A DNA stretch of 35,586 bases from Candidatus Aquicultor sp. (GTDB taxonomy: Bacteria; Actinomycetota; Aquicultoria; Aquicultorales; Aquicultoraceae). Below are positions 9,832 through 24,399 of the stretch, piece by piece. The stretch is from positions 1 to 35,586 of the forward strand of contig JAUXNY010000128.1 in NCBI GenBank assembly GCA_030682615.1. The letters run 5' to 3'. Made by a program: the position numbers and the translations under genes. Position 1 is the first letter of the stretch, and each line of letters opens with the position of its first letter. A model generated the notes under the pieces. It made no database searches, had not been told where the DNA came from, and saw only the letters and a list, made by a program, of their open reading frames with translations.

Positions 9832-11316
9832 CTATGATTCAACCGCACCAAGAATTTCCCGGAAGCTGTTTAGTCCTGCCTCGAGGTTTTCGATTATTTC
9901 TAGCGCCAGCTCGTCGGGTTCGGGTAGATTGTCGAGGTCGGCTAGGCTCTTGTCTTTGAGCCAGAAGATATCGAGGCTGGTTTTGTCGCGGGCGATTATT
10001 TGTTCGTAGGTGAATTTGCGCCAGCGTCCTTCCGGGTTGTCTTGCTCGTTCCACAGTGGGTTGCGCTCATGGCGATTGAGCGGGTTGTAGCAGGCGATAA
10101 ATTCCTGTAAATCCTCATAGCGCAGCGGTTTCTTTTTTAGGGTGTGGTGAACGTTGGTGCGGTAGTCGTAGTACCAGACTTCTTTTGTCCACGGCTCCTT
10201 GCTGGCTGCGCGGTTATCGAAGAACAACACATTTGCCTTGACGCCATTGGCGTAAAAGACGCCGGTCGGCAGGCGCAGTATTGTGTGCAACTCAGTGGTT
10301 TCGAGCAGCTTCTTTCGCACCGTCTCTCCTGCTCCGCCTTCAAACAAAACATTGTCCGGCACGACGACGGCAGCGCGGCCGGTGGTTTTTAGCATGGTGC
10401 GGATGTGTTGCACAAAGTTGAGTTGTTTGTTGGAGGTGGTCGCCCAGAAATCCTGTCGGTTGTAGGTCAGGTCGTCTTTTTCCTGTTCGCCTTCCTCATT
10501 GGTAAAGCTCATCGCGCTTTTCTTGCCGAATGGCGGATTCGCCAGCACATAGTCGAAGCGCTTGCCGCTATCCGCCACCAGGGCGTCGTTAGGCGACACC
10601 ATGCTGTCCCCGTCGATTTCACCGATGTTGTGCAAAAACATATTCATCAAGCACAGACGGCGCGTCCCCGCGACGATTTCATTGCCGCTAAAAGTCTCGT
10701 GCTTGAGAAACGCTTTCTGGTCCTTGTCCAGCTGCTGCTGCGGCGCCACCAGAAAATCGTAAGCGGCCAAAAAGAATCCGCCCGTGCCGCAGGCCGGATC
10801 GGCAATGGTCTTGTTTGGCTCCGGGCGCACGCACTCCACCATTGCCTTGATCAGCGCGCGTGGAGTAAAGTATTGCCCGGCACCGGACTTGGTGTCTTCC
10901 GCATTTTTTTCGAGCAAGCCTTCGTAGATATCGCCCTTAATGTCGGCGCCCATCGTCACCCACTGTGTTTCGTTGACCATATCAATCAGGCGATACAGCT
11001 TGGCCGGGTCTTGAATCTTGTTTTGCGCCTTGGTGAAAATCTGTCCCAGCATCCCCGGCTTGTTGCCCAGTTCGCGCAAGAGCGTCACGTAATGCACCTC
11101 CAGCTCCGCGCCCCGCTTGGGCTTAAGACTTTGCCAATTGTATTCGTCGGGTATGTCCACCTTGCGATTATAAGGCGGCTGGCTATATTCGTCGGCCATT
11201 TTCAGGAAGATAAGATAGGTTAGTTGCTCCAGATAATCGCCATAGCTCACGCCGTCGTCGCGCAACGTGGTGCAGAAACTCCAGACTTTTGAAACGATAG
11301 ATGCGGTTGCGTTCAT
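9832..11316 (-). CDS. hsdM: Type I restriction-modification DNA methyltransferase (M subunit)
   Basis: 494-residue N6-adenine methyltransferase subunit. A helical HsdM N-terminal domain (1-130) precedes the catalytic fold. The AdoMet motif is ADPACGTGG at 172-180 and the catalytic motif IV NPPF at 260-263. With HsdS it methylates the host target, and with HsdR it cuts unmethylated DNA. The start at 11316 has GAGG upstream. It lies 3 bases after the RhuM-Fic stop, so all belong to one operon, in the unusual order R-S-RhuM-M. A diverged copy of its last 50 codons is at 7463-7612. Confidence 0.97.
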   Translation of the reverse strand: MNATASIVSKVWSFCTTLRDDGVSYGDYLEQLTYLIFLKMADEYSQPPYNRKVDIPDEYNWQSLKPKRGAELEVHYVTLLRELGNKPGMLGQIFTKAQNKIQDPAKLYRLIDMVNETQWVTMGADIKGDIYEGLLEKNAEDTKSGAGQYFTPRALIKAMVECVRPEPNKTIADPACGTGGFFLAAYDFLVAPQQQLDKDQKAFLKHETFSGNEIVAGTRRLCLMNMFLHNIGEIDGDSMVSPNDALVADSGKRFDYVLANPPFGKKSAMSFTNEEGEQEKDDLTYNRQDFWATTSNKQLNFVQHIRTMLKTTGRAAVVVPDNVLFEGGAGETVRKKLLETTELHTILRLPTGVFYANGVKANVLFFDNRAASKEPWTKEVWYYDYRTNVHHTLKKKPLRYEDLQEFIACYNPLNRHERNPLWNEQDNPEGRWRKFTYEQIIARDKTSLDIFWLKDKSLADLDNLPEPDELALEIIENLEAGLNSFREILGAVES

Positions 11317-11319
11317 GTA

Positions 11320-12321
11320 TTAACCTCGAATCAGATTCATTATCAGATGAATCATCAGTTGTTTTTGTGCCGGGTCGCTTTGCGCCACCAGCAGCGCAAT
11401 TGCCGCCAGCGCGTTGTCGTTGATTTTCAGTTCGCCGTCGGTTTTCAGATGGTGCTGGTTGCGTTGCAAAAACCAGATGAACAGGAACGCCCCGATACGC
11501 TTGTTGCCATCCGAAAACGGATGATTCTTGATGACGAAATACAACAGATGCGCGCCCTGCTCCTCGATGCTCGGATAAAGAAACTCCCCGCCAAACGACT
11601 GTACGATATTGCCGAGAATACCCGCAAAACTATCGTCTTTTTGATTGCCAAATAGCTCCGACGCTTCGTTTTTCGCCATCAAATCCGCCTTGAGTGCTGT
11701 AATGCCTGCTTCGGCTTCCGCAGGTTGGATTTCATAGCGTATGGTGGTCGCAAAATCCCCCAACGGCAGCCGCTCGCTGTCGAACTGATTGAGCAACACA
11801 AAGGTACGGGCATAACCGGTAATCACGCTCACCAGTCCGCGCGCCTCGGGCAAGCTAGCCTGCTCGATCAGGTTTTGCTGGAATAGAGTCAAGGTGCGCT
11901 CAAGCTGTTTGATATGCTCCTGCTGTACCTGCAAGCGTTGCCTGTTCAGCGCGTAGCCTTGCACCAGATAATCTTTCAGGACACGGTTGGCCCAGATGCG
12001 GAATTGCGTACCCTGTTTGGATTTCACGCGGTAACCGACCGAAATAATCACGTCGAGGTTGTAGTGCGCAGTATCATACTCCTTGCCATCGGCCGCAGTT
12101 ATCCGGAAATTCCGGATAACTGAAGACTCATCCAGTTCGCCTTCCTTGAAAACATTACGGATATGCTCGCTGACCGTTCGAATATTCTTTCCGAACAACT
12201 CAGCCATCTGCTTTTGCGATAGCCATACGGTTTCGCCTTGTAGCCTGACCTCGGTGGCTATCGAGCCATCGGCGGATTGGTAAATGACGATGGGGGCAGC
12301 GGTATTTTCTTGAGTAGTCAT
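11320..12321 (-). CDS. RhuM-family protein with Fic/DOC domain
   Basis: 333 residues. The N-terminal RhuM domain (about 10-125) includes VWLSQKQMAELFGK and SVIRNFRITAADGKEY, a helix-turn-helix-like region of the family. A central helical linker leads to a Fic domain with HPFSDGNKR at 267-275. That is the complete HPFx(D/E)GNxR active site, which transfers AMP or another nucleotide part to proteins. It is embedded in the hsd operon between hsdS and hsdM. RhuM-Fic genes are found repeatedly in type I loci, perhaps as a backup toxin or modulator. The intact motif suggests an active enzyme; the target is unknown. Confidence 0.93.
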   Translation of the reverse strand: MTTQENTAAPIVIYQSADGSIATEVRLQGETVWLSQKQMAELFGKNIRTVSEHIRNVFKEGELDESSVIRNFRITAADGKEYDTAHYNLDVIISVGYRVKSKQGTQFRIWANRVLKDYLVQGYALNRQRLQVQQEHIKQLERTLTLFQQNLIEQASLPEARGLVSVITGYARTFVLLNQFDSERLPLGDFATTIRYEIQPAEAEAGITALKADLMAKNEASELFGNQKDDSFAGILGNIVQSFGGEFLYPSIEEQGAHLLYFVIKNHPFSDGNKRIGAFLFIWFLQRNQHHLKTDGELKINDNALAAIALLVAQSDPAQKQLMIHLIMNLIRG

Positions 12322-12355
12322 GCCTAAACCTCTCTTGTTTTTCGAGACATCGCCG

Positions 12356-12382
12356 CAGTTGTTGCATTTTTTGCAACAACTG
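12356..12382 (-). repeat. Hairpin between hsdS and the RhuM-Fic gene
   Basis: CAGTTGTTGC and GCAACAACTG form a perfect 10-base stem with a 7-base A-rich loop on the transcript. No T run follows, so it is unlikely to be a simple terminator. It could tune mRNA stability or separate hsdS from the downstream genes. Confidence 0.5.
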
Positions 12383-12436
12383 GCTGAGCCGACCTTCCGG
12401 CAACTATAAGGAAATTCCGAATAATTGGAATTGGCA

Positions 12437-13978
12437 TCATGCTTTTCTCCCGGTCAGCTTACGCGACTTGGCGGTAACTGTTCCGTTCTTTGCAACGGTT
12501 GCCTTCTCCGCCTTGATGCGTGCCAGCAACGCCGAGGCGGGTTCGTCATGCGGGTCTTGCGGCACCAGTTGGCCGGAGAAAGCTTTTTTCAGGATGGACT
12601 GGCGCAGGGCTTCGGCTTGTTGCAGGGCAGTGGTGATGGTTTGGTCGAGTTGGTCACATTCAGACAAACGTGATTCAGTCTCCAGCAAGATTTGTTGCTG
12701 CTCGCGTTGGCTAAAAATGGCTACCGGCAAATTTGCCAACACAGTTAAGTTAATTGATGCCAAGTTAGTAGTTTGCTTGGCGTGTCGAAAAAAATATTTC
12801 TTTGCGCTTTTTGTCTGTGAGTATAGAGAAAGAATTTCCGAACTAATGACACCGCCATAGATTCTCGCCCTGAAAATGTGGTTTTGGTGAATGCACGAAT
12901 CAATCTGATTTCGCCACACTGCACCCCTTCCAAGCTTATCTTTGTCTCCACCTTCAGTGTATAGAACATCGCCGAATTCCAGCCGATATTTGTCTTTATC
13001 TTGCGTTTCAACTTCAATCTGCTTGATTTCCGTTAAATCAAGGTATCCATCCTGAACATTTGCAACACGCAGATATGGCAGAGATAGCTTTTCTTTGCCC
13101 TCAAGATTTTTCCCTTTCGTAACGCCACCAATCAAATCCGCAATATTTCCAAGTTTCTCCCACCCCCACCCGTCTGGCAGTTCGGGTAATTCGGCTAGTT
13201 CTTCGGTGGTCAGAGGTGGTAGGGTTTTTGGGGTTTTTGGTTTGCGGCCTTGTTTGCCGAATGTTTCCCAGTCGGTCAGTTGTTGTTGGTAGTGTTGCGC
13301 GCGTTCGGTTTGGATGCGCTTTAGTAAGGCTTCGGCGCTTTCTAGTTTGTCCTGGTTTTCTGCACGCCACTGCGCAGTGAGTTTGCCCTCGAAGGCGTGT
13401 TTCAGCAAGGCTTGGCGATATACCTTGAGCTGCGCATGGGCGGTTTTCAGGTTTTCAATGCCCTTATCCAGCTCGGAAAACAGCTCCTCTATTTTTGCAA
13501 CTATGCGGTGTTGTTCTGGAAGTGGCGGGAGTCCGAACTCCAGTTCCTCAACAAACTGTTTGTTGATTGCAGAAAATGTAGAGCCCGTGCCTTCTTTTGA
13601 AATGTCTGTTTCAATGCCGCGAAGTAGGTATAACACAAACATTGGCGAAATACCGCCAACTGGGTGAATCGCTGCAAGTCCCCGGCCGATACAGCACTTT
13701 TCTTTCGCTAGATTTGTCGGTCCAACTGGTGCCCGAACTGATAACAACGTTGCTCCAGGCAACGCAATTTTATTAGGTGCATTACAGTATTTTGCAACGG
13801 TTGGATAAATTGCCCCAAACTCAGCTTTACCCTGAAAGAACGGGATTCCATCCCCACCTCTGTTGTAGGTATCAGAAGTCGGTGACTGCCCCATAACTAT
13901 GTCGGTAAAGTCAGGTAAACAGCACCTGCTCCATCCTTGTGGTAGCGAATCATTCGTTATTCTTGAAAAAAGCATCAC
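12437..13978 (-). CDS. hsdS: Type I restriction-modification specificity subunit (S)
   Basis: 513-residue DNA-recognition subunit. Two target recognition domains (about 5-150 and 265-420) are each followed by a long conserved helix. The central helix begins LPPLPEQHRIVAKIEEL and the C-terminal one QREQQQILLETESRLSE. These helices set the spacing between the two half-sites and bind HsdM. The start overlaps the hsdR stop by 4 bases. It appears full-length and intact. The recognition sequence cannot be read from the protein. Confidence 0.96.
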   Translation of the reverse strand: MMLFSRITNDSLPQGWSRCCLPDFTDIVMGQSPTSDTYNRGGDGIPFFQGKAEFGAIYPTVAKYCNAPNKIALPGATLLSVRAPVGPTNLAKEKCCIGRGLAAIHPVGGISPMFVLYLLRGIETDISKEGTGSTFSAINKQFVEELEFGLPPLPEQHRIVAKIEELFSELDKGIENLKTAHAQLKVYRQALLKHAFEGKLTAQWRAENQDKLESAEALLKRIQTERAQHYQQQLTDWETFGKQGRKPKTPKTLPPLTTEELAELPELPDGWGWEKLGNIADLIGGVTKGKNLEGKEKLSLPYLRVANVQDGYLDLTEIKQIEVETQDKDKYRLEFGDVLYTEGGDKDKLGRGAVWRNQIDSCIHQNHIFRARIYGGVISSEILSLYSQTKSAKKYFFRHAKQTTNLASINLTVLANLPVAIFSQREQQQILLETESRLSECDQLDQTITTALQQAEALRQSILKKAFSGQLVPQDPHDEPASALLARIKAEKATVAKNGTVTAKSRKLTGRKA

Positions 13979-16761
13979 ACCACCAACACCTCATTCAACT
14001 CTTCCAGCAGCTCATCCATCCGAGCGCCGAACAGTTGATACATCTTGCCCAGGCCGCCTTGTCCATCGAAGGGCGCCATTTCCAGGTCGTCGTGGTCGAT
14101 GTGGAATGAGTTGGCGATGTGGTCGCGGATCATGCGTAGCCAGTTCATTTGTTCTTCGTTGAATTTCTCGCTGCCGCCGGAGTGGTGTTTCATCACCCAG
14201 TTCTGGAAGTTGCGGCGCACAGTGTCGTCGAAGGTGGAGAGCTTGTCGTCCATGCCGCAAACGCGGCGGATAAGTGCGACCAGCGCGGTCAATTCGCTGA
14301 TGGGCTGCGCTCCTTTGTAGTCGTCCAACTGGCGATAGGCTTGCCACACGCGCAGTGGGGCTAGCTTGGGTTTGTCCGCTTTAAGCTTGTCCATCACTTC
14401 TCGTATCATCTCGAAGCTGAGTTCGCGCCGCCGATACGGCTGGCTGAAGAAAATGGTGAGCGCTTCGATGTTATCCTGATTGCTTCTCAGGTAATCGGCA
14501 AATTCGTCGGACAGGGCTTGCGCGTTGTTGGCCGCGTCCTTGTCCCACTCGGCGCGCAGCACGCTGTCGATATTGTCATGGTCGATGGTTTGTTCCTTGT
14601 CGCGGCGGATGGTGTCGATGAGTTCGACGAGTCCGCCATTTAGAAGACGAGCAGCGTCGCCGACCAATTGCTCTTGCGCCAACTCGCGGTTTGCGTCGCC
14701 GGGGTCGTTCTCTATGGGTTGTCCCGCCAATTCTAAGGCTTTAGCTTCGATGTTGTCGGCATCGATTGCGTCGAACAGCTTGCCGATAATCGCGGTGAGT
14801 TCCACGCCTCCGGCAGCCTCGCTTATTCGCCGCTGTTCATCTGTATTGAGTTGCTTGTTGAGCCGCGCCAAGCGTCCGGCAAGTGAGCTGACGGTGTCTC
14901 CATCGCTCGCGCCCATCATCACACTCATCGCCAAATCCTTAAGCGGTATGCCGGGTTTGGTGATGAGCGGTTGGCTGGCGGTTTTCAGCGATTTAGTAAC
15001 GCCGATGGCATCGATAATCACATAGTGGGTCTTAGCGCTCACGGCGGACGGTGTGACTTTCTGCAAATCGTCCATATCGAGCGTGCGCGTGCCGCGGCCT
15101 TTCATCTGTTCGAAGTAGTTGCGACTCTTTACGTCGCGCATGAACAGCAGGCATTCCAGCGGTTTTACATCGGTGCCGGTGGCAATCATATCCACAGTGA
15201 CGGCGATGCGCGGATAATATTCGTTGCGAAACTGCTGCAAAACGGACTTGGGGTCTTCCTCGGTCTTGTAGGTGAGTTTTTTGCAGAACGCATTGCCTTC
15301 GCCAAACTCCTCGCGCACGGTCTGGATGATGTCGTCGGCGTGGCTGTCGGTCTTGGCAAAGATTAGGGTTTTCGGGACTTCTCTGCGACCAGGGAAAATC
15401 TCCGGCAACTTATCGCGAAAGGTGCGAATTACGGTGCGAATCTGGTCGGGATTGACGATATTTTGGTCGAGCTGCCGGGCGGAGTAGACTTCGTCTTCGT
15501 CCTGGAGTTCCCAGCGTTTTTTGCGGGTGAGCTTCTCACGGCGCTCGACCTGCTGGTGCGCTTTTATATGCGCGCCTTGCGTGGTAATCTCGGTTTCGAT
15601 TAGATAGATTTCGTTACCCACATTGACGCCATCGGCCACTGCTTTTTCGTGACTATAATCGCTGACCACGTTCTTTTTGAAAAAACCGTAGGTACGATTG
15701 TCCGGTGTGGCAGTGAGACCAATAAGGCTGGCATCGAAATAATCTATAACCTGTTGCCACAGGTTGTAGATGGAGCGGTGGCATTCGTCGATGAATATGA
15801 AATCGAAAAATTCCGGCGGGACCTTTTCGCTATAGACTACAGGCTTCGGTTCTTTGGCTTGTGTTAGTTCGGCTGGATTTATCTCCTCGGCGGCCTCATC
15901 GAGTTCTCTGTCTTTAAGAATGGAGTAGAGCCGCTGGATGGTGCTGATGCAAACCTGGCTGTCTTTAGCGACGAACGAGGACTTAAGCCGCTGCACGTTA
16001 TATAGCTCGGTGAACTTGCGGTTATCGTCGATGGGCACATAGGACATCATTTCCTGCTCGGCTTGTTCGCCCAGGTTTCTGGTATCCACCAAAAACAGGA
16101 TGCGCTTGGCCTGAGCGTGTTTGAGCAGGCGATAAATTGAAGTAATCGCGGTGTAAGTTTTGCCCGCGCCGGTCGCCATTTGAATCAAGGCGCGTGGGCG
16201 ATCTGCCTTGAAAGAGGCTTCCAGATTGTTGATGGCAATTTCCTGACAATCGCGCAGGCGCAAATCCTTTGCGGGGAGATGATTCGGGTTGAGTATTGGA
16301 ATATGCTGCAAACATTCGCGCAGGCTGTCGCCTTGCGCGAGCCATTCCTTAAGTGTTTCAGGCCGGTGAAAACTGAAGACTTCGCGCGAACGCGGTTTGG
16401 GATCGCGGGCATCGGTGAAGCGGGTAAGGATGCCGGTGCTCTCGTAGAGGAACGGCAACGGCTCTTTGTTGTTAACCCACTTCAGCTGGGCACCGGCATA
16501 GCCTTCGGTTTGTGTTTCATGAACGGTAAGTCGCTGCCCCTCTTCTTCACGCTTGGCCTCGATCACACCCACCGCTTTTTTATCCACGAACAGCACATAG
16601 TCCGCCGGGCCGACATCGGTCTGGTATTCACGCACAGCCTGACCCAAGCCGACATTGAGGTCAATCTTCGTGTTGTGCTGAACCGCCCACCCTGCCTGCC
16701 TTAACAGCGCATCGATATTGTCTCGGGCTTTCTGTTCGGGGTTTTGGTTGTGTGTTGTCAA
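13975..16761 (-). CDS. hsdR: Type I restriction enzyme, R (motor/nuclease) subunit
   Basis: Large restriction subunit. The start is taken as TTG 16761 (MTTHNQNPEQKARDNID), preceded by AAGGA, though the frame is open to a GTG at 16794. The N-terminal HSDR_N nuclease shows the D...EAK signature (ADYVLFVDKKAVGVIEAK). The SF2 helicase has ATGAGKT near residue 200 and DECH near 327, and the C-terminal domain is of the EcoEI type. It translocates DNA using ATP and cleaves when two complexes collide. It is the first gene of the hsdR-hsdS-rhuM/fic-hsdM operon. No disabling mutation is visible. Confidence 0.96.
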   Translation of the reverse strand: MTTHNQNPEQKARDNIDALLRQAGWAVQHNTKIDLNVGLGQAVREYQTDVGPADYVLFVDKKAVGVIEAKREEEGQRLTVHETQTEGYAGAQLKWVNNKEPLPFLYESTGILTRFTDARDPKPRSREVFSFHRPETLKEWLAQGDSLRECLQHIPILNPNHLPAKDLRLRDCQEIAINNLEASFKADRPRALIQMATGAGKTYTAITSIYRLLKHAQAKRILFLVDTRNLGEQAEQEMMSYVPIDDNRKFTELYNVQRLKSSFVAKDSQVCISTIQRLYSILKDRELDEAAEEINPAELTQAKEPKPVVYSEKVPPEFFDFIFIDECHRSIYNLWQQVIDYFDASLIGLTATPDNRTYGFFKKNVVSDYSHEKAVADGVNVGNEIYLIETEITTQGAHIKAHQQVERREKLTRKKRWELQDEDEVYSARQLDQNIVNPDQIRTVIRTFRDKLPEIFPGRREVPKTLIFAKTDSHADDIIQTVREEFGEGNAFCKKLTYKTEEDPKSVLQQFRNEYYPRIAVTVDMIATGTDVKPLECLLFMRDVKSRNYFEQMKGRGTRTLDMDDLQKVTPSAVSAKTHYVIIDAIGVTKSLKTASQPLITKPGIPLKDLAMSVMMGASDGDTVSSLAGRLARLNKQLNTDEQRRISEAAGGVELTAIIGKLFDAIDADNIEAKALELAGQPIENDPGDANRELAQEQLVGDAARLLNGGLVELIDTIRRDKEQTIDHDNIDSVLRAEWDKDAANNAQALSDEFADYLRSNQDNIEALTIFFSQPYRRRELSFEMIREVMDKLKADKPKLAPLRVWQAYRQLDDYKGAQPISELTALVALIRRVCGMDDKLSTFDDTVRRNFQNWVMKHHSGGSEKFNEEQMNWLRMIRDHIANSFHIDHDDLEMAPFDGQGGLGKMYQLFGARMDELLEELNEVLVV

Positions 16762-17022
16762 AACGCTCAAATCCTTGTAGGTATTTAGTAACACGACACA
16801 TTGTTATCAGCTACATGCTTCTCTTAAGATTCTACCGAGCGCTTACAATAAATACAAGAAAGCTGGGTTTGGTGGGTCGGCAACGTCATTTACGAAAGGC
16901 TGGCTTATAGACGCGTGGGCTTAAGCAGAAGAAATTTGAGACAAAGCAACAAGCTTGCGTGAAAGTCTTAGAATTGGAAACCTTTACAGGCCCGAAACAG
17001 GATGCAAATCTTTGAGCAGTAT

Positions 17023-18659: not shown

Positions 18660-18944
18660 TTACTGGAGATGTCTTACGTACTGCTCAAACAAAGCGAGCG
18701 CCGCTTCGACACTCTCCTCGGGCCCTTTTTCGGCGGAGCTTTCTTTTGCGATACAATCACGGATGACGCTCGCCAAGATAATCTCGCCAACGCGCTGAAA
18801 AGCGCCTTTTGCGGCCGCAAACTGGGTCAGGACGCTCTCACAATCCTCGCCCATCTCAACCAACCGCTGGAGACCCCTTAGCTGGCCCTCAAGCCTCTTA
18901 AGCCTTGTGACTATCCGCTTGCACTCTTCCTCGCGATCGTACAT
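18660..18944 (-). CDS. CsoR-family sensor, CstR-like (persulfide type)
   Basis: 94-residue all-helical repressor of the CsoR/RcnR family (RLKRLEGQLRGLQRLVE). Copper-sensing CsoR uses Cys-His-Cys. Here the two Cys are kept at 35 and 64 with the right spacing, but the His position (60) is Val. That pattern matches CstR-type regulators, which sense persulfides or related sulfur species rather than copper. It lies 20 bases after the selenocysteine thioredoxin gene, in the same operon. A matching operator (ATACCC...GGGTAT) sits in the trxA promoter at 20306-20322, so control of thioredoxin is likely. The sensing chemistry is inferred from the residues. Confidence 0.88.
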   Translation of the reverse strand: MYDREEECKRIVTRLKRLEGQLRGLQRLVEMGEDCESVLTQFAAAKGAFQRVGEIILASVIRDCIAKESSAEKGPEESVEAALALFEQYVRHLQ

Positions 18945-18964: not shown

Positions 18965-19393
18965 CTATTTAAGAGTTTTCTCGACATTCTCAACTATGAG
19001 TTCTTTCGGCTGCGACCCGATTAACGTATTGACCGTAACTCCGTCTTTGTTTACAAATATCAATGTCGGTATCGACCGGATTCCAAACTGGTCGGCGACT
19101 TTTACATGCTCCGGATTGTCCAAGTCATAGGTTTCGAACGTTATTTTACCTGCATATTCTTTCTTTACCTGCTCCACGAGCGGCTTTATCTCCCTACAGG
19201 CGGGTCAGTAGTCCGCCGAGAAGAACAGGACTTTTGGTGTGGCGCTTACTACCGGCTTAGCGTTATCACCCTGGTTCGCCTTACCACTCGTTCCCTGGGT
19301 TTGGCTCTGCTGACATCCGATTACGGATAGCGATAAAACTCCGATGAGTATTGCGATTACTAAAACTTTAATTGTGCTATTTCTATCAAACAA
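18965..19393 (-). CDS. Thioredoxin-like lipoprotein, probable selenoprotein (UGA = Sec)
   Basis: One continuous 143-codon frame interrupted only by TGA at 19205-19207. The TGA falls exactly at the first active-site Cys: FFSADY-U-PACREIKPL, giving a UxxC redox motif. The downstream part keeps the thioredoxin fold, including the cis-Pro in IRSIPTLIFV. The start is TTG 19393 with GGGAGGAG 6 bases upstream. The signal peptide ends in a lipobox (SVIGC), so it is a membrane-anchored lipoprotein facing outward. A small hairpin (GCTC-GTG-GAGC, 19171-19181) lies 23 bases after the TGA and could be the bacterial SECIS. Gene callers would split or truncate it. A nonsense mutation is the alternative. Confidence 0.75.
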
Positions 19394-19439
19394 CGTATTC
19401 TCCTCCCAACCGTGACGGAAAGTTTGTTATTTGTATCGA

Positions 19440-19466
19440 GTGGTATAGACCCGTATAGTATACCAC
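19440..19466 (-). promoter_or_regulatory. Inverted repeat upstream of the selenoprotein gene
   Basis: GTGGTATA (19440-19447) and TATACCAC (19459-19466) are perfect arms with an 11-base spacer. The centre is 60 bases upstream of the TTG start and contains -10-like TATACT. It is a probable operator overlapping the promoter. Confidence 0.5.
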
Positions 19467-19656: not shown

Positions 19657-19875
19657 TCAGCGAAAACCGCCGGTACCGCAACCGCCGCCGGAGTGCCCCG
19701 CGGCACTGCCGCTCTTGCTTCTAGACGCGGTATAGCCGAAAAAGTCCCGGTATGCTTGGCGTACGTTTGTGCTGCCGCAGCTCGGGCAGACTCTATCTGA
19801 ATCACGCAGCATTCTCATTAAGAATATCTCATAGTCGCTGGCGCAATCGTTGCAGGCAAATTGATAAGTTGGCAT
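19657..19875 (-). CDS. FmdB-type zinc ribbon protein
   Basis: 72-residue protein with the FmdB signature: MPTYQFACNDCASDYEIF, then VCPSCGSTNVRQ. Four Cys (8, 11, 30, 33) form one zinc ribbon. The tail is Gly/Ser-rich and flexible. GGAGGGAC precedes the ATG. Family members are small putative regulators with no settled target. It lies 91 bases downstream of trxA, so it may be co-transcribed with thioredoxin. Confidence 0.93.
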   Translation of the reverse strand: MPTYQFACNDCASDYEIFLMRMLRDSDRVCPSCGSTNVRQAYRDFFGYTASRSKSGSAAGHSGGGCGTGGFR

Positions 19876-19966: not shown

Positions 19967-20278
19967 TTATAGCCCAAACTGGCGCACGATTTCTTCTTTC
20001 GACACTGCTCCGACGATTTGGCCCGCGGCCTGGCCCTCTTTAAAGAGCATCAGCGTCGGAATACTCATAACGCCGAACTTGCCGGCCCATTCGCGCTCTT
20101 CGTCGACGTTTAGCTTAAGGATCTTCACCTTGCCGTCATACTCTTTCGCAAGCTCTTCCAGCCTCGGACCGATAATCTTACACGGCCCGCACCAAGGAGC
20201 CCAAAAATCGACTATCACAGGGACATCTGATTTCAACACTTCCGCGTCAAACTGCGCATCGGTTATATTACTAGGCAT
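19967..20278 (-). CDS. trxA: Thioredoxin
   Basis: 103-residue cytoplasmic thioredoxin with the active site WCGPCK (Cys 30 and 33) and cis-Pro in MSIPTLMLF. It reduces protein disulfides. The full length matches the family. AAGGAG precedes the ATG by 9 bases. The promoter upstream has consensus -35 and near-consensus -10 boxes, with a CsoR-type operator in the spacer. Expression is therefore probably controlled by the CstR-like sensor at 18660-18944. Confidence 0.97.
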
Positions 20279-20301: not shown

Positions 20302-20330
20302 TTTATACCCTAGGGGGGTATTAATGTCAA
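20302..20330 (-). promoter_or_regulatory. trxA promoter with CsoR/CstR-type operator
   Basis: On the minus strand TTGACA (20325-20330) and TATAAA (20302-20307) are 17 bases apart. The spacer carries ATACCCCCCTAGGGTAT (20306-20322), a near-palindrome of the A/T-C/G-G/C-T/A type bound by CsoR-family repressors. Confidence 0.75.
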
Positions 20331-20616: not shown

Positions 20617-21033
20617 CTACTTGAGTTCGGTCTTAACATAATTCGCGATTAACTTAATCTGCTCTTCAGTCAGCTCGCCGCCCTTAAATTTAGGCATCGA
20701 GCCCTTTCCTTCGTTGATCACTTTCTCTACTTCCTCGACAGAACGAGCGGTCCCCCGGATAGCCGGCCCAATCACGCCGTTGCCGTCATGCCCATGGCAA
20801 GCGCCACAGCTATTGACAAACAGCTGCTCAGGGTCCTTGACCTCTTCGGGCTCCAGCTCCACCGCTTCACCTTCAGCTTCTGCCTCCCCCGCGCTTTCCG
20901 TAACAGCGCCTTCTTTTTTCTCCGTGCTGCTCCCGCCCGAACATCCCGCGAGCATGAAACCGGCCAATGAAATCAATAGCAGGAAAACTAAAATGCCTGT
21001 CGATTTTTGAAACTTCACCTTGTCTAGCCTCAA
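20617..21033 (-). CDS. Cytochrome c lipoprotein
   Basis: Small monoheme cytochrome c anchored as a lipoprotein. The start is taken as TTG 21033 because GGGAGG lies 8 bases upstream; ATG 21048 is an alternative. A hydrophobic signal ends in the lipobox MLAGC. A Glu/Ala-rich linker (about 36-65) leads to the heme domain, with CGACH near residue 76 and the distal Met in KGSMPKF near 113. It acts as an electron carrier on the outer face of the membrane. It stands alone, with its own terminator, so its partner complex is not evident. Confidence 0.92.
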   Translation of the reverse strand: MRLDKVKFQKSTGILVFLLLISLAGFMLAGCSGGSSTEKKEGAVTESAGEAEAEGEAVELEPEEVKDPEQLFVNSCGACHGHDGNGVIGPAIRGTARSVEEVEKVINEGKGSMPKFKGGELTEEQIKLIANYVKTELK

Positions 21034-21138
21034 AAGATTCCCTCCCATCCTAAACGACCATGTCTTTCTATATAAGTTACCGTATTGTGGCCGCCGTTTC
21101 CAGTGTTTGATGATAATTTATCAATTGTTTTTCCATTC

Positions 21139-23908: not shown

Positions 23909-24032
23909 TTTGACCCCCTTTGATTGTTGAGCGGCTGCTGAAAACAAGAACTCACCAACCACACAAAAAAGCCCGGCCATTATCGACCAAGGCTTACCGC
24001 CCACTCCGGCCTCGGAAGTGGTCTCCCTTGCA

Positions 24033-24225
24033 TGTCCCAGGCAGGTCTCCTGGCTTCCGGATCTTCGCTTGCCACGCCTTCCCGGCCTTTGCGGATTTAA
24101 CCCCGCTCTTGCCAGTGACATCTATGGCTTGCTCCCCGATTACAGTGACGGGCTCGCGCTGGACTTTCACCAGCTTCCCTATTCTACGCCGACAATTCTT
24201 GATACAGTCGCACGTCACCTGGGAC
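24033..24225 (-). promoter_or_regulatory. Cobalamin riboswitch
   Basis: The minus-strand RNA has the conserved core GGGAAGCTGGTGAAAGTCCA, then CCCGTCACTGTAA, then the closing GAAGCCAGGAGACCTGCC block. P1 is formed by CCTGGGAC (24218-24225) and GTCCCAGG (24033-24040). It lies about 125 bases upstream of cbiM and should shut off cobalt uptake when cobalamin is plentiful. Confidence 0.93.
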
Positions 24226-24399
24226 CTATATGATTTGGCGCCAGTTTACCATAGCGCAACATCGTTCGCAAATAATATCGCACCCTAATCGGCAGAGCTA
24301 GCGGGTACTGTTGGCTTCGGCACACAGTCGTTTGTTTAAGCAAAAAGGGCGCGCGTCGTTGCCGAGCAGGTTTTGGAGTTCTTCTTCAGCGATTAGGCA

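Follow-up and report, generated by a model that had tools for sequence, protein, structure and literature searches.

The question raised by this locus was whether an in-frame TGA codon, placed where thioredoxins carry the first cysteine of their CxxC motif, is read as selenocysteine (Sec), and what a thioredoxin of this kind would do beside a CsoR-family repressor. The locus lies in a contig of Candidatus Aquicultor sp. (JAUXNY010000128.1, assembly GCA_030682615.1), of which a stretch of 35,586 nucleotides was analyzed and is called the window here. The gene and its parts are as follows.

18965..19393, minus strand: predicted Sec-thioredoxin lipoprotein gene, with TTG start at 19393 and TAG stop at 18967-18965, 142 aa
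19205..19207, minus strand: in-frame TGA, read as Sec, the first residue of U-P-A-C; TGA occupies the same column in all family and order orthologues found
19316..19384 (approximate), minus strand: N-terminal hydrophobic helix and lipobox (VIGC), for putative export and lipid anchoring, recognized from the sequence and from a predicted helix at residues 5-25
19394..19408, minus strand: candidate ribosome-binding region GGGAGGAG upstream of the TTG, recognized from the sequence and from relatives

The coordinates 18965-19393 given in the original prediction were correct, and the strand, which it had omitted, is minus. Translation of 19393..18965 with TGA as U gave (M)FDRNSTIKVLVIAILIGVLSLSVIGC...VLFFSADYUPACREIKPLVEQV...IPTLIF...EKTLK, followed by the stop codon. 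The TTG start is common to nearly all family members of the Sec-thioredoxin. The frame contains a single TGA (19207-19205, residue 63), and the protein consists of a hydrophobic N-terminus with the VIGC lipobox, a low-complexity linker and a thioredoxin domain. The PF00085 match runs across the TGA (residues 52-139, E 8.8e-16, 58.2 bits against a gathering threshold of 23.5), which bears out the proposed succession of lipobox, Y-U-PAC and thioredoxin fold in one frame. In the AlphaFold2 model the thioredoxin domain, from about residue 51, had pLDDT values of 92-98 and the N-terminal helix covered residues 5-25; the PDB matches returned by Foldseek were thioredoxins. By inspection, a lipobox of the form LSVIGC with its cysteine is present in the window protein and most relatives, while L022 and L032 retain the hydrophobic N-terminus alone. 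The term lipoprotein therefore holds for the window protein and most of its relatives, and not for these two.

Standard ORF calling divided the gene in two, with a lipoprotein of 62 aa at 19205-19393 and a headless thioredoxin of 70 aa at 18965-19177, just as had been anticipated. Because gene callers split it in two, a selenoprotein conserved throughout the family is probably missing or truncated in annotations. The same two short ORFs would also be expected of a pseudogene, decaying or split, in which the TGA truly ends translation, so that a short lipoprotein is made and the thioredoxin part is a remnant left untranslated. The capacity of the host to insert Sec, the conservation of the codon and the constraint on the RNA downstream of it bear on this reading.

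The host genome (2.14 Mb, 153 contigs, estimated 100% complete) contains selA (E 1.6e-187), selD (E 9.9e-108) and selB (E 2.5e-105), the last of which runs off the end of contig C17. Contig C4 carries the SelB C-terminus, followed after about 64 nt by a tRNA-Sec with anticodon TCA (ARAGORN). With selB split between C17 and C4 and tRNA-Sec behind the SelB C-terminus, the genes selD-selA-selB-selC probably form one cluster broken by the assembly. All four components for which a search had been proposed are hence present, selB across a contig break. The selD gene (L048, G000:C17:16641-17558) is itself a predicted selenoprotein gene with its own in-frame TGA and the motif SGUAAK. Among 36 genomes of the class, each one with a clear TGA thioredoxin had selA, with the exception of G009; there the TGA is kept and selA was not found, which in a draft genome (97% complete) is weak evidence.

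In ten other genomes of the family or order (G002-G011), the TGA was at the same UxxC column in 10 of the 10 orthologues found, whose identity to the window protein ranged from 26 to 89%. The in-frame TGA is thus not due to chance. Among the relatives matched in the GTDB set were Candidatus Aquicultor secundus and other Actinomycetota, and related Sec-thioredoxins were found throughout the class. One class member, L028, has Cys at the TGA column, as do the thioredoxin paralogues, so that the alignment called for in the original prediction yielded TGA in relatives and Cys in L028. The two findings it had named as fatal, a genome devoid of Sec machinery and close relatives with neither Cys nor UGA at this position, were not obtained. 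A tree built from 62 thioredoxin domains (96 columns, with row L031_U_1 a spurious pattern hit) contained four changes between Sec and Cys, with weak deep forks and a resolution too poor for dating. In one family of the class, two Sec-thioredoxin lipoprotein genes occur in tandem about 1.8 kb apart (L094, L096, L097), each with a GU-loop hairpin. A second Sec-thioredoxin in G005 (L092) is preceded by an apparent TPR-type region, not by a lipobox.

A hairpin had been predicted 23 bases after the UGA. It was found there, and the distance was close: the stem begins 20 nt past the UGA (19184) and the apical loop lies 27 nt past it.

19167..19184, minus strand: SECIS-like hairpin with apical loop GUG at 19177-19175, based on folding, recoding, covariation and the bSECIS model

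The alignment of the region behind the UGA was gap-free across 24 homologues. In a numbering that starts at the U of UGA, positions 24-30 pair with 34-41 and enclose an invariant GU. In the four inner stem pairs 87.5% of the cells were standard pairs, and 26 cells had changed on both sides; none of 500 shuffles reached the native pairing, and slid controls remained near 52% or below. In every member the native sequence folded better than the average over 2000 synonymous recodings, with p 0.02 for the window gene and a Fisher combined p of about 1e-8 over 16 sequences, a value that overstates the case as these sequences are related. Compared with dinucleotide shuffles, the window hairpin alone was not significant (z -0.67). 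As the folding of the single sequence is unexceptional, the case rests on the comparative evidence of covariation and synonymous recoding.

The published bSECIS model (PMC13188914) specifies a loop of 3-9 nt, a stem of 4-16 bp, G in one of the first two loop positions, a spacing of 16-37 nt and an MFE of at most -7.5 kcal/mol. The window hairpin agrees with it in loop size and G position (GUG), stem (7 bp with one bulge) and spacing (27 nt). Folding of the 33-nt core gave an MFE of -7.4 and folding of 81 nt one of -15.7; the energy limit is therefore reached only with the outer stem. The proposed check for a bacterial SECIS was therefore positive: the hairpin agrees with the published model, shows covariation and has a stability above that of synonymous recodings. 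The GU loop is provided by a Val codon, which was present in 23 of 23 Sec rows and in 2 of 28 Cys rows, a contrast that is a hint only, because most of the 28 Cys rows are cytosolic thioredoxins and 3 of 5 membrane-type Cys rows have Val. The invariance of this codon could be a sign that the SECIS limits the choice of amino acid close to the active site.

The pseudogene reading is very improbable in the light of these results. The TGA, its flanks, the UxxC motif and the fold downstream are conserved across family, order and class, the hairpin covaries, and the genome is equipped for Sec insertion. TGA has been reassigned in some bacterial lineages, and decoding as Trp or another residue, by reassignment or read-through, would likewise keep the frame open. 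Here, however, the TGA sits at the redox-active Cys column, with Cys in L028 and the paralogues, and the genome has the complete Sec machinery and the gene a SECIS-like hairpin; this explanation was considered even less probable than a pseudogene and close to negligible. From the sequence evidence, we regard the gene with very high confidence as a true selenoprotein gene. Its product would most probably be a small membrane-anchored thioredoxin, from a deep-branching and uncultured actinomycete, with the rare amino acid selenocysteine in the reactive position.

Sec-containing thioredoxin (Trx, PF00085, UxxC) is an established selenoprotein family (PMC13188914) and has been tabulated, for example, for Treponema denticola and Geobacter (PMC1794560). 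The window protein shares with it the PF00085 fold, Sec as the first residue of the CxxC motif and a SECIS directly downstream, and differs by the lipobox or membrane anchor and by a cluster with a thioredoxin, an FmdB protein and a CsoR-family repressor. The original prediction had considered selenium in an outer-facing redox protein beside a persulfide-type sensor notable; Sec-thioredoxins as such are already known, and what is new here is the anchored form, its gene cluster and its operator. No literature naming both Aquicultor and selenocysteine was found. The family consists of subsurface bacteria, with Candidatus Aquicultor among the relatives.

The window protein remained below the cut-off of every NCBIfam model that it matched, including TIGR01068, TsoB and TsoX. 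With 62.7 bits against 96.8 for the thioredoxin equivalog TIGR01068, it is thioredoxin-like and does not count as equivalent to the usual cytosolic thioredoxin. TsoB (NF045694), a rhodanese/DsbD fusion-like selenoprotein, was rejected at 27.4 bits against 805; its C-terminal thioredoxin segment matched the window protein weakly (E 8.6e-7). Unlike TsoB, the window protein has neither a rhodanese nor a DsbD domain, and no genome of the class passed the TsoB cut-off. TsoX was rejected because the score was below the curated cut-off. SaoT (NF040730) resembles the window protein as a UxxC thioredoxin-like selenoprotein, but the window protein did not match it at E 0.01, and only L031 did so weakly (15.8 bits against 65). 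ResA, TlpA and DsbE are likewise exported, membrane-attached proteins with a thioredoxin fold; the window protein was far below the cut-offs of these models and consists of a plain PF00085 core with Sec in place of Cys.

The Sec-thioredoxin gene has the following neighbours.

18660..18944, minus strand: CsoR-family repressor, CstR-like, with Cys...Cys and no His; 20 bp downstream of the Sec-thioredoxin stop and probably co-transcribed
19657..19875, minus strand: FmdB-family zinc-ribbon protein, conserved in the cluster
19967..20278, minus strand: ordinary cytosolic thioredoxin (WCGPC), the first gene behind the candidate operator
20617..21048, minus strand: cytochrome c with an N-terminal lipobox-like stretch, a conserved upstream neighbour

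The order cytochrome c, thioredoxin (WCGPC), FmdB, Sec-thioredoxin and CsoR-family repressor was kept in six relatives, in one of which (L083) the contig stops short of the repressor. At the metal/thiol positions the repressor carries two Cys, and the His of copper sensors is replaced by Val; both Cys are also present in L084. Its best PDB match was 7mq3 (7mq1 was also matched), which has Cys...Cys without His, while InrS retains the His. Its best curated model was FrmR, below the cut-off. On account of the Cys...Cys pattern without His, as in 7mq3, it is regarded as CstR-like, with the reservation that formaldehyde and metal sensors share the CsoR fold and that this pattern is no proof of a persulfide effector. 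The designation of this neighbour as a persulfide-type sensor was therefore reasonable as to the site, with the effector itself still putative. CstR is a sensor of per- and polysulfides (PMC5480029). Control of the cluster by a CstR-like repressor is proposed with moderate confidence. An inverted repeat (GTGGTATA...TATACCAC, 19440-19466) is located in the gap between FmdB and Sec-thioredoxin, some 50 bp before the TTG, also occurs in L080, and may be a second promoter or operator.

A candidate operator was found in the promoter of the cytosolic thioredoxin.

20305..20321, no strand assigned: palindrome ATACCCTAGGGGGGTAT, CsoR-type candidate operator between TTGACA (-35) and TATAAA (-10)

The pattern ATACCC-N5-GGGTAT occurred once in the window, at this site, against an expectation of 0, and twice in the host genome as a whole, in which the reversed control pattern had no match. 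In every relative examined, the palindrome lies between -35 and -10. A promoter scan of the cluster gave no matches; the pair TTGACA-17-TATAAA was missed because the rule requires T as the last base of the -10 element. The operator of a CsoR-family protein is usually a pseudo-palindrome containing four or more consecutive G or C (PMC10318464). The second copy in the genome (G000:C120:1533-1549, L121) precedes a bile-acid-symporter/ACR3-type exporter that adjoins a SulP permease, the position before such an exporter being one seen in this genus, and in four relatives (L124, L130, L132, L134) copies precede DUF302 genes; literature linking DUF302 to CsoR or CstR was not found. The copies suggest a small CsoR-family regulon, with the repressor that would bind them still putative. 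Compared with the CstR system, the likeness is in the neighbouring repressor with Cys...Cys and no His and in a promoter palindrome with runs of C and G. In contrast, the genes adjacent to the repressor here encode thioredoxins and FmdB in place of rhodanese, sulfite exporter or sqr, and the effector is presumed. No sulfide-oxidation genes were seen within the window.

Taken together, the locus very probably encodes an exported, membrane-anchored UxxC selenothioredoxin that would serve as an extracytoplasmic reductant, in a cluster apparently under a CsoR/CstR-like repressor. The sequence itself establishes the reading frame, the Sec machinery, the conservation of the TGA, the constraint on the hairpin, the gene order and the conserved palindrome; Sec incorporation in vivo, the substrate, the electron donor and the palindrome-binding repressor are inferred. 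SelB would deliver Sec-tRNA to the UGA by means of the hairpin 20 nt downstream. In the protein, the selenolate of U63 (U63-P-A-C66) would attack the sulfur of a disulfide, persulfide or polysulfide, and Cys66 would resolve the intermediate. As the Sec-thioredoxin would be located outside the cytoplasmic membrane, electrons would be needed from inside, and it could be re-reduced across the membrane by a CcdA-type DsbD_TM protein of the host genome, which is a plausible electron donor. The gene of this protein adjoins that of a multihaem cytochrome. The cluster's own CsoR/CstR-like repressor would act on the palindrome in the thioredoxin promoter, so that Sec-thioredoxin would be made once sulfane sulfur or another thiol-reactive agent modifies the sensor.

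Reduction of sulfane sulfur by thioredoxins is known from E. coli (PMC6831875). Three proteins from another class of the phylum (L103, L104 and L105) combine a membrane helix, a rhodanese domain and a Sec-thioredoxin with the motif UPTC; they lack the DsbD portion that TsoB has. This fusion couples a related Sec-thioredoxin to sulfane sulfur. With the CstR-like neighbour, it makes extracytoplasmic reduction of persulfides or polysulfides the leading idea for the substrate, which is held with low to moderate confidence; ordinary disulfide reduction is a serious rival. A true selenothioredoxin could equally serve exported disulfide reduction in general, the maturation of cytochrome c or the redox chemistry of metals or arsenic, with a repressor that senses metal or formaldehyde, and this was given close to an even chance. 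It is compatible with the selenoprotein half of the explanation above. The cytochrome c neighbour and the multihaem cytochrome adjoining CcdA agree with it, as do the palindrome before the ACR3/bile-acid-symporter-type exporter and FrmR as the top curated model of the repressor, below its cut-off. Against it, the repressor lacks the copper-site His and aligns best with 7mq3/7mq1 (Cys...Cys, no His), and another class has a related Sec-thioredoxin in fusion with a rhodanese domain.

For the persulfide reading, a more specific form can be put forward tentatively, and with less than even expectation: a dedicated module for extracytoplasmic persulfide/polysulfide reduction in deep-branching Actinomycetota, in which a CstR-like sensor, the palindrome and a tethered selenothioredoxin would act together. 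In its fused counterpart, the rhodanese domain would carry the sulfane sulfur and the selenol would remove it. The protein as predicted would place selenothioredoxin chemistry outside the membrane and tie it to a CsoR/CstR-type regulon, and this combination makes a role of selenium in sulfane-sulfur handling directly testable in vitro.

Two further loci of the window were noted. A cobalamin riboswitch (24023-24237, 109 bits) lies upstream of an apparent cbiM/N/Q/O cobalt transport operon. A type I restriction-modification locus (9832-16794) contains, amid its subunits, an extra ORF with a Fic-like HPFSDGNKR motif.
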